From: Candidatus Brevefilum sp.
GTDB lineage: Bacteria; Chloroflexota; Anaerolineae; Anaerolineales; Anaerolineaceae
Assembly (NCBI GenBank): GCA_029210815.1
Contig: JARGGB010000012.1
Span: forward strand, 1-51,839
Direction: 5' to 3'
Length of the DNA: 51,839 nucleotides
Shown here: positions 29,338 to 31,109 of the stretch, piece after piece
Numbering within the stretch: position 1 is the stretch's first letter
Layout: the number at the start of each line of letters is the position of its first letter
Made by a program: the position numbers and the translations under genes
The notes under the pieces: generated by a model
Told to the model about the DNA's origin: nothing
Seen by the model: only the letters and a program-made list of their open reading frames with translations
The model's database searches: none

Positions 29338-29655
29338 ATGAAATTTGTAATTGTCGAACAAGGCGGCAAACAATATCGAGCTGCCGAAGGTAATACGATT
29401 GAAGTTGATCGTTTGCCAAATGAGGTGGGTGAAGCGTTAACCCTTGAAGATATCCTTTTATCCGTTGATGGCGATAAAGTAGTCATTGGTACACCGGTCA
29501 TTGAAGGCGCAAAGGTTCAGGCAAAAGTGCTTGATCACTTCAAAGGTCGCAAGATCCTGGTCTTCAAATACAGGCCGAAGCAACGATATCGTGTAAAAAA
29601 CGGTCATCGGCAGCAATATACTCGTTTGCTGATCGAATCGATTGAATTGGAGTAA
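29338..29655 (+). CDS. rplU: 50S ribosomal protein bL21
   Basis: The 105-residue protein starts [15 protein letters not shown], the conserved bL21 beginning. It contains [18 protein letters not shown] and the ending [12 protein letters not shown], all typical. A 15-codon longer reading frame exists, but the ATG at 29338 has GGAG upstream and gives the family start. It is followed by rpmA after 5 bp, the usual pairing. Confidence 0.98.
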
Positions 29656-29660
29656 ATATC

Positions 29661-29927
29661 ATGGCACATAAAAAAGGCGGCGGCGCATCTCGTAACGGTC
29701 GTGACAGTAAATCGAAACGACTTGGTATTAAAAAATTTGGTGGTGAATTCGTTATCAGCGGTAATATCCTGGTTCGCCAGCGTGGCACCAAGATCCACCC
29801 AGGTTGGAACGTCGGTATGGGTAAGGACCACACCCTTTTCGCAACAACTGAAGGTCTCGTTCATTTTGAAACGATGCCCGGTGGGCGAAAAAAGGTGCAT
29901 GTCGTTACCATCCCTAATGAAGAATAA
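29661..29927 (+). CDS. rpmA: 50S ribosomal protein bL27
   Basis: The 88-residue protein begins M-A-H-K-K-G-G-G and has [17 protein letters not shown], then [10 protein letters not shown], which are diagnostic of bL27. The N terminus reaches the peptidyl transferase centre. There is no N-terminal prepeptide of the kind removed in Firmicutes. It lies between rplU and rpmE in one operon. Confidence 0.98.
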
Positions 29928-29962: not shown

Positions 29963-30442
29963 ATGAAAAAAGACATTCATCCCGAATATTATCCAGAGGC
30001 GACAGTCATTTGCGGCTCTTGTGGTGCAACCTGGAAGACAGGTTCGACACAAAAAGAGATCCGCACTGAAGTTTGTTCCAATTGTCATCCCTTCTATACC
30101 GGTCAACAGCAGCGAATTCTTGATCGTGAAGGCCAGGTTGATCGATTCTACAAACGATTACAGGCTCGCCAGGAATATCTTGAAGATCAAAAAGCTAAAG
30201 AGGAAGAAAAAGTCTCCCCGGATCGCGCCATTTCAGAACTTGGATTGGGCACCCGTGTGGATAACGTCCTTGAAGAAGCCGGTATTAAGACCATTGCAGA
30301 TGTCCTTGAGCGCCTTGAAGGCGGCGAGCAAGCCCTGCTAGAGGTTAGCGGTTTTGGACGAAAATCTCTGATCGACTTAAAGAAAGCTTTACGTCAGCAG
30401 GGGTATAAAATTCCTGAAGCAGCTGAAGAAATCACCGTATAA
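29963..30442 (+). CDS. rpmE: 50S ribosomal protein bL31 fused to an RNAP alpha-CTD-like domain
   Basis: The 159-residue protein is about twice the usual bL31 length. Residues 1-68 are zinc-type bL31, starting M-K-K-D-I-H-P-E-Y with Cys17, Cys20, Cys38 and Cys41 and the motif C-H-P-F-Y-T-G. A charged linker (70-87) leads to residues 89-152, which resemble the C-terminal domain of RNA polymerase alpha: I-S-E-L-G-L, R-V-D-N-V-L, A-G-I-K-T-I-A-D-V-L and G-F-G-R-K-S-L-I-D-L-K. Arg98, Asn101, Lys134 and Ser135 align with alpha-CTD residues that touch UP-element DNA. The stop codon and a terminator follow directly, so this is one continuous frame, not a readthrough artefact. The function of the extra domain is unknown. 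Confidence 0.93.
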   Translation: MKKDIHPEYYPEATVICGSCGATWKTGSTQKEIRTEVCSNCHPFYTGQQQRILDREGQVDRFYKRLQARQEYLEDQKAKEEEKVSPDRAISELGLGTRVDNVLEEAGIKTIADVLERLEGGEQALLEVSGFGRKSLIDLKKALRQQGYKIPEAAEEITV

Positions 30443-30476: not shown

Positions 30477-30512
30477 ACAGGCAGATGAATGTTCATCTGC
30501 CTGTCCTTTTTT
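30477..30512 (+). terminator. Rho-independent terminator of rplU-rpmA-rpmE
   Basis: ACAGGCAGATGA (30477-30488) and TCATCTGCCTGT (30493-30504) form a 12-bp perfect stem with an ATGT loop, followed by CCTTTTTT. The tdk ribosome-binding site lies just beyond, so tdk needs its own promoter or readthrough. Confidence 0.9.
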
Positions 30513-30536: not shown

Positions 30537-31109
30537 ATGAAACATGATGTAGGTTCGGTAGAAGTTATTTGTGGTTCCATGTTTTGCGGCAAGACGGAAG
30601 AATTGATCAGACGCTTGCGGCGGGCTAGGATTGCGAAACAAGAAGTCCAGGTGTTTAAGCCCGCCATTGATAATCGCTATGATCATAAAAAGGTAACCTC
30701 CCACTCAGGTTTGGATGTTGATGCACAACCTGTGGAAAGCTCGGAGGATATTCTTGCACAGCTGGATTCATCAACGACAGTCGTTGGCGTGGATGAAGTT
30801 CAATTTTTCGATGATGGCATTATTGATGTGGTTGAAACCCTGGCTGAACAGGGAATACGTGTGATCGTCACCGGACTGGACATGGATTTCAGGGGAGAGC
30901 CCTTCGGCTGTATGCCCGATTTGATAGCAAAGGCTGAGAAGGTTGAAAAATTGCAGGCGATCTGCATGGTTTGCGGCGAATCTGCCAGTCGAACCCAGCG
31001 TTTGGTAAACGGTGAGCCAGCGCATTATGAAGAACCCATTGTTGTGGTTGGTGCACAGGAAATGTACGAAGCACGATGCCGCTTGCATCATCAAGTCCCG
31101 CGAGATTAG
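30537..31109 (+). CDS. tdk: Thymidine kinase (type II)
   Basis: The 190-residue enzyme phosphorylates thymidine to dTMP. The P-loop [11 protein letters not shown] is near the start, the catalytic base region D-E-V-Q-F-F follows, and F-R-G-E-P-F-G is the lasso/substrate part. The zinc site is C-M-V-C-G with a later C-R-L-H-H. ATG at 30537 is chosen because CAGGAG precedes it and the upstream frame encodes the terminator hairpin. It belongs with hpt, 14 bp downstream, in a salvage operon. Confidence 0.96.

Follow-up and report, generated by a model that had tools for sequence, protein, structure and literature searches.

Parts of the alpha-CTD, the C-terminal domain of the RNA polymerase subunit RpoA, carried by other polymerase subunits or by regulators are proteins of known kinds, and extensions of ribosomal proteins are known as well. 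In this regard, the RpoC model NF011498 (PRK14906) represents what we take to be a beta prime/alpha-domain fusion. In ribosomes of Enterococcus faecalis, the C-terminus of bL31 touches the 30S head at uS13, uS14, uS19 and helix 42 (PMC7530986). Searches of open-licence PMC text returned no report of an alpha-CTD on a ribosomal protein (bL31, bS16 or bL21), and nothing was found on the expressome side of the same literature. The locus described here holds such a combination, in which a zinc-type bL31 is followed in the same chain by an alpha-CTD.

The gene lies in the window, by which we mean the whole stretch of DNA analysed (51,839 nucleotides, Candidatus Brevefilum sp.). Here rpmE (29963..30442, + strand) is a single unbroken frame of 159 codons plus stop that encodes the bL31 core (residues 1-66, 29963..30160, with cysteines C17, C20, C38 and C41), a charged linker (residues 67-86, 30161..30220), and the alpha-CTD module as defined by profiles and predicted fold (residues 87-150, 30221..30412). 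Upstream in the same gene run, and on the same strand, are a plain rplU (bL21, 29338..29655) and rpmA (bL27, 29661..29927), both recognised by ORF and sequence reading. Just past the rpmE stop codon, direct reading of the sequence shows an inverted repeat followed by a T run (30477..30512, +), likely the terminator of rplU-rpmA-rpmE, and the next gene is thymidine kinase-like (30537..31109, +; ORF and sequence reading). The four cysteines of the zinc site are invariant in an alignment of 28 rows. No second bL31 was found in this genome, the three matches at 1e-8 being bL31, RpoA and a membrane protein. RpoA is a separate gene and is intact (324 residues, CTD at 68.8 bits), so that a bL31 copy replacing a lost RpoA CTD is ruled out here; the fused chain itself lacks the alpha N-terminal assembly domain, its N-terminal part being bL31.

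Profile searches identify both parts of the protein. Ribosomal_L31 covers residues 1-66 in Pfam and TIGR00105 residues 1-67 in NCBIfam, and this full profile, together with two CxxC pairs, places the core among zinc-type bL31. RNA_pol_A_CTD (PF03118) covers residues 79-144 with 43.6 bits and an E value of 2.4e-11, above the curated cut-off of 23.8. The earlier note on this DNA had read one frame as a complete zinc-type bL31, a linker and an alpha-CTD-like domain, and the frame and the three models agree with that reading; the generic helix-hairpin-helix models that it had named as a competing identity are weaker on the module. HHH_5 (PF14520) stays under its cut-off of 27 both for the whole protein (17.5 bits) and for the module alone (19.7 bits), and HHH_9 (PF17674) is barely above its cut-off of 23.1 for the whole protein (23.4 bits), has its best stretch in the bL31 part (residues 4-32) and is not listed by Pfam for the module alone. 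A profile built from the tails of 81 RpoA of the class gives the module 59.8 bits (2e-18). In line with this, the NCBIfam models found on the tail are RpoA models, alpha subunits make up 49 of the 51 PDB sequences matching the module with an E value of at most 10 (best E 2.3e-5), and identity to the genome's own RpoA-CTD is 47%. The bL31-alpha-CTD fusion is real.

The predicted fold, which the earlier note had proposed to superpose on alpha-CTD, gives a concordant picture. From 28 aligned sequences (24 two-part and 4 plain bL31), AlphaFold2 produced a model with the bL31 strands, a single helix at 58-83 and helices at 90-93, 97-105, 111-119, 122-126 and 133-145 (mean pLDDT 75.4, pTM 0.39). The top 23 Foldseek rows are ribosome chains, bL31 by their length, and 11 of them have an E value of 0.001 or better; the first alpha-CTD (9dvt_A) comes at rank 24 with E 5.8e-3, rmsd 0.9 over 62 columns and a target TM of 0.89, and from there downward RNA polymerase alpha chains appear too, at E 5.8e-3 and weaker. 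Judged by titles and lengths, none of the 50 Foldseek rows shown is a bL31 chain with an alpha-CTD. When residues 83-153 of the model were compared by VIA-align, solved alpha-CTDs ranked best, with a top Z of 10.6 and an rmsd of 1.9 over 67 aligned positions; Dmc1 led the non-alpha chains (Z 8.9), and the HhH domains of RAD51 and Dmc1 (8.1-8.9) were intermixed with the lower alpha-CTD rows. Given these rows, and since a Z below about 13 may correspond to a common arrangement in helical bundles, the fold supports the alpha-CTD identity and the profile decides it. A generic HhH identity, weaker on the module by profile and by structural comparison, was rejected. The linker probably forms a helical arm. 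With a pTM of 0.39, the modelled placing of the module against bL31 is tentative, as is the angle of the arm to the ribosome; a helical linker could bend.

The survey of rpmE across Chloroflexota that the earlier note had suggested places the fusion throughout the sampled order. At 1e-12, 132 of 151 genomes of the order gave a bL31 match (19 gave none), and 131 of these 132 carry both parts, 130 in one stretch and G561 across two contigs; the match of G596 covers residues 50-153 only, and G600 has an extra short bL31-like match. One stop codon falls inside the matched range in 3 of the 130 stretches (G055, G437 and G565), that of G055 being the natural gene end. In a class sample of 130 genomes, 127 matched at 1e-8 and both parts were present in 26. 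Main group A comprises the window's own order and families f138, f11, f127, f136, f13 and f9, and group B families f112, f131 and f135; in family f119, G518 is fused, G494 is plain by frame length and G467 is without a bL31 match. ORFs were read for 25 of the 26 two-part genes (all but G046; that of G514 is truncated where its contig stops) and for 32 plain ones, the remaining plain assignments being made by match end and frame length.

Each of the 51 fused bL31 tested matches the profile of 81 RpoA tails (9e-7 or better), and none of 31 plain ones does. A scan of contigs, in which ORFs were read for 35 of the best 80 loci, placed the fusion in at least 23 loci among these 80 (L006-L028), from records named Anaerolineae, Anaerolineales, Anaerolineaceae, Mesolinea, Chloroflexi or Chloroflexota. 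Together with the 131 of 132 order genomes, these named-record loci exclude a chance or assembly join. Among plain bL31, 30 of 32 have at least 99 residues, with tails unlike the module, and the other two have 76 and 83. Long repeat-rich tails, charged or proline-rich, were observed in plain Chloroflexota bL31 at L030, L262 and L268. Some bL31 are without zinc cysteines (L139, L141, L142, L143 and L265, families f9 and f5); those of f9 retain the module and the single one of f5 is plain.

Module residues were compared in E. coli numbering through alignment to an RpoA profile, the E. coli tail being identical to PDB 1lb2_B, in 45 main-group modules from 30 order members (best-scoring loci, nearest the window) and 15 members of other families. 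In the window, R98 (30254..30256) corresponds to R265, N101 (30263..30265) to N268, G132 to G296, and K134-S135 (30362..30367) to K298-S299, all on the + strand. The earlier note had described the four DNA contacts R265, N268, K298 and S299 as kept, which is accurate for this sequence but not for the family: the complete set of four occurs in just 3 of 45 main-group bL31 (G000, G168 and G200, the window's genus), compared with 81 of 82 RpoA, and the DNA binding deduced there from the four residues fails at that scale. Elsewhere, the complete set occurs in 0/5 group B, 0/1 G518, 4/5 bS16, 1/3 bL21 and 9/15 NusA modules, the bS16 counts covering five modules without the sixth, L280. Taken singly, the positions hold R/K265 in 41, N268 in 11, G296 in 40, K/R298 in 27 and S299 in 26 of the 45 group A modules. 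Classical minor-groove DNA binding is thus not what selection keeps across main-group bL31, and DNA binding through the four contacts was rejected as a family-wide trait; with R/K at position 265 in 41 of 45, some DNA-type binding may remain.

Another surface is shared by almost the whole main group. K/R at positions 304, 305 and 308, a basic triad on helix 4 represented in the window by K140, K141 and R144 (30380..30394, +; by alignment), occurs in 44 of the 45 modules of group A, versus 0 of 82 RpoA; the exception is G514, which ends early at a contig end. The same triad was found in 1/3 bL21 modules, and in 0/15 NusA, 0/5 bS16, 0/5 group B and 0/1 G518 modules. Net charge, ranging from -4 to +4 in the main group, was not useful as a marker. 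When the window is compared with its relatives, the module diverges more than the bL31 core, yet slowly: its dN/dS is 0.10 with L007 (0.11/1.15), 0.09 with L008 (0.17/1.85) and 0.13 with L009 (0.21/1.67), values that are rough because a dS of 1.1-1.9 is near saturation and was computable in three of five comparisons (not for L006 and L010). On these sequence comparisons, the alpha-CTD module is held by selection, with its surface changed. Between the GQVDRF anchor of bL31 and the module, 42 of 45 main-group sequences have 26 residues, two have 24 and one has 27; the spacing is 32 in all five of group B and 31 in G518. RpoA linkers are likewise little variable (26-36 residues in the 66 measured of 82, and 26-31 in 63 of the 66), so that the near-fixed bL31 spacing is suggestive only.

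The history of the fusion seems to involve more than one gain. The groups were named after a first RpoA tree of 81 rows, on which 6 changes are needed. On an RpoA N-domain tree of 78 rows, built without three long ones and read with three genomes of uncertain state disregarded, the AU test rejected a single clade of the 33 fused genomes (p 1.9e-6) and a clade of A plus B (p 0.0135), and did not reject A alone (p 0.56); this outcome cannot by itself separate gains from losses. In the first RpoA tree, G518 groups with the plain G494 and with G467 (support 99). At the DNA level, its bL31 module shares 83.9% identity with module 2 of its own NusA, on the same contig, versus 63.4% with its own RpoA, which we read as a separate and recent gain, most simply copied from NusA. 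At L119, a NusA with two tandem alpha-CTD modules lies divergently next to rpmE, which has a module 83.9% identical in DNA to that of NusA.

Trees of the modules themselves suffer from too few columns and from weak support. In the first, of 92 rows (35 of 82 RpoA and 26 of 51 bL31 modules, L162 modules and E. coli left out), a branch at 78 sets main-group bL31 to one side and the G518 bL31 falls among NusA modules at 89; in the second, of 57 rows (more hosts, some NusA and bS16 rows left out), neither a single bL31 clade (p 0.67) nor a clade of bL31, bS16 and bL21 (p 0.40) was rejected. Separate origins are not readable from the module tree and would be based instead on the species tree, the linkers of 26, 32 and 31 residues and the DNA identity seen in G518. 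As the module tree fails to reject one bL31 clade, it is likely, and no firmer than that, that group B gained its fusion separately.

Other ribosomal proteins of the class carry the same domain. A PF03118 search of 128 class genomes (122 of the class sample of 130 and six order members; E up to 1e-4 or 1e-5) found bS16 with a C-terminal module in at least six genomes (G453, G529, G505, G547, G479 and G544; loci L116, L117, L159, L160, L161 and L280; families f105, f134, f130 and f137), and bL21 with a C-terminal module in at least three (G453, G529 and G505; L156, L157 and L158), all of which have the bS16 fusion too. These counts are lower bounds, since the thresholds missed known bL31 modules (e.g. 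G240, G490 and G536). Of the fusions submitted to Pfam, three bS16 and two bL21, all have both domains above cut-off. The bS16 of L280 has a long Glu/Ala-rich repeat linker before its module. The NusA tail matches PF03118 in several class members.

The domain was also observed in hosts of quite different kinds. Two RpoC, identified by reading (L164 and L165), have an alpha-CTD-like segment in mid-chain, and weak matches occur in more RpoC-sized frames. A deoxynucleoside kinase (L163:943-1878, +) has the module inserted within the kinase, a protein with a receiver domain and a glycosyltransferase (L121:1343-4672, +) has three modules, and an HTH protein, so named by reading, has one (L166). Large regulator-like proteins (L162, L276, L277, L278 and L283) hold two to six alpha-CTD-like stretches, some of them weak, and a sigma-region-4-like helix-turn-helix by sequence reading. 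In the window itself, a membrane protein of 426 aa (1378-2658, - strand) combines an N-terminal part resembling bactofilin, which at 26 bits falls slightly short of its cut-off, with an alpha-CTD module at the C-terminus, which at 24.0 bits narrowly exceeds 23.8; the gene adjoins genes read as sigma-factor-like and anti-sigma-like, and a similar match was present in G168, with none listed for G200. In 56 genomes of other Chloroflexota classes, 56 of the 59 PF03118 matches lie in frames of 316-497 aa, the size of RpoA, and the remaining ones in frames of 820, 1613 and 148 aa, of which the 820 and 148 aa ones were read and neither is ribosomal. For annotation, it should be kept in mind that PF03118 matches in the class of the window are often not RpoA.

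With regard to function, we tentatively favour, at slightly less than an even chance, the idea that the alpha-CTD has been re-used as an arm on the 30S head and that this arm docks on a nucleic acid, rRNA being the most likely one. The last bL31 helix would continue from its usual place on the 30S head, next to uS13, uS14, uS19 and helix 42, and would hold the module about 25 angstroms past the point where bL31 normally ends, a distance reckoned from 17 residues with a rise of 1.5 angstroms each. There, the basic helix-4 face of the module may rest on 16S rRNA or neighbouring RNA, and the docked module could steady the bL31 inter-subunit bridge or the 30S head. In this role a DNA-binding domain would have been borrowed to extend a ribosomal protein, and the module would not act as a second polymerase arm. 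A docked ribosome extension is favoured by the basic triad, the near-fixed linker and the known site on the 30S head where bL31 ends, and the relaxation of the DNA contacts together with the conservation of a new basic face makes rRNA docking the best reading. Against it, bS16 and bL21 sit elsewhere on the ribosome than bL31, and their modules are not explained by a site next to bL31. Moreover, since the basic triad is missing in group B (0/5) and in G518 (0/1), the docking account covers the main group only.

The presence of one module on RpoA, on several NusA, on some RpoC and on three ribosomal proteins in the class suggests a second explanation, a serious rival that we nevertheless consider somewhat unlikely, namely that the ribosome displays an alpha-CTD mimic bound by the partners of RpoA-CTD (NusA, activators, promoter or nascent DNA) and that transcription and translation are linked in this manner. 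The mimic could keep ribosomes near the transcribing polymerase or, as a variant, compete with RpoA for NusA. The four DNA contacts are complete in 4/5 bS16 modules and in the window's own genus, which favours such a mimic, but in only 3/45 of the main-group bL31; bL21, besides, is distant from the mRNA entry side of the ribosome. Also in its favour, AR2 of NusA binds the alpha-CTD in E. coli (PMC6614801). The bS16 and bL21 fusions make a link between ribosome and polymerase more interesting, and are no proof of it.

In a broader version, which we hold to be unlikely, the alpha-CTD would be a shared gene-expression adaptor of Anaerolineae-type Chloroflexota, repeatedly attached to bL31, bS16, bL21 and NusA. 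If so, ribosomes would bear polymerase-type arms that either rival RpoA for its partners or work with it on them, and coupling, for which other bacteria use separate factors, would have a built-in physical basis.

It is quite improbable that the module is a largely neutral addition, that is, a copy of an abundant alpha-CTD that became attached and was kept because it is well folded and harmless. Tails of other types are common in the class, as 30 of 32 plain bL31 with at least 99 residues indicate, and modules do occur in unrelated hosts such as the deoxynucleoside kinase, the glycosyltransferase and the bactofilin-like membrane protein; however, a plain-only bL31 was found in 0 of 132 order genomes with a match, amino-acid change is slow, and a new basic triad is maintained in 44 of 45 modules. 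Very improbable, too, is autoregulation, in which the module would bind the DNA or mRNA of rplU-rpmA-rpmE and the amount of bL31 would feed back on its own operon. The bL31 of gamma-proteobacteria does repress its own mRNA, but through its N-terminal segment (PMC10931766), no Rfam family reaches its gathering score in the window, and the presence of the module on different ribosomal proteins disfavours one operon-specific site. Lastly, a precursor whose tail is cut off to leave plain bL31 in the mature ribosome is hardly credible, for although PMC7530986 describes a cleavage that removes seven residues from the end of bL31, and its effects, a discarded tail should not retain a folded domain and a surface triad.

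The findings presented here place a domain of RNA polymerase regulation on a ribosomal protein, one that belongs to an intersubunit bridge, throughout the sampled order. The uptake of the same domain by bS16 and bL21 makes what an alpha-CTD gives a ribosome directly testable, and these bacteria offer a natural system for the joining of transcription and translation or for new rRNA contacts of ribosomal proteins.

Among known systems, the large multi-module regulators (L162, L276, L277 and L278) share the domain with the window's rpmE but have several alpha-CTD modules per chain and are not ribosomal. The RpoC model NF011498 matches the window module at its positions 1315-1369 of 1459 (17.6 bits, E 0.00046), a weak match far under cut-off, and describes an RNA polymerase subunit. 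As for the C-terminal AR1/AR2 region of NusA, several NusA tails of the class match PF03118 and the bL31 module of G518 is 83.9% identical in DNA to that of its own NusA; modules of main-group bL31 stand apart from those of NusA in the module tree, with its weak support and few columns. The RpoA-CTD has the same profile and predicted fold as the bL31 module, and the main-group module differs from it in its bL31 host, in four contacts that are not kept family-wide and in a triad present in 0/82 RpoA. With zinc-type bL31 (bL31A, TIGR00105), finally, the fused protein shares the full core and the cysteines, and the window retains the rplU-rpmA-rpmE neighbourhood; what sets it apart is an extra helix and a domain of 64 residues.
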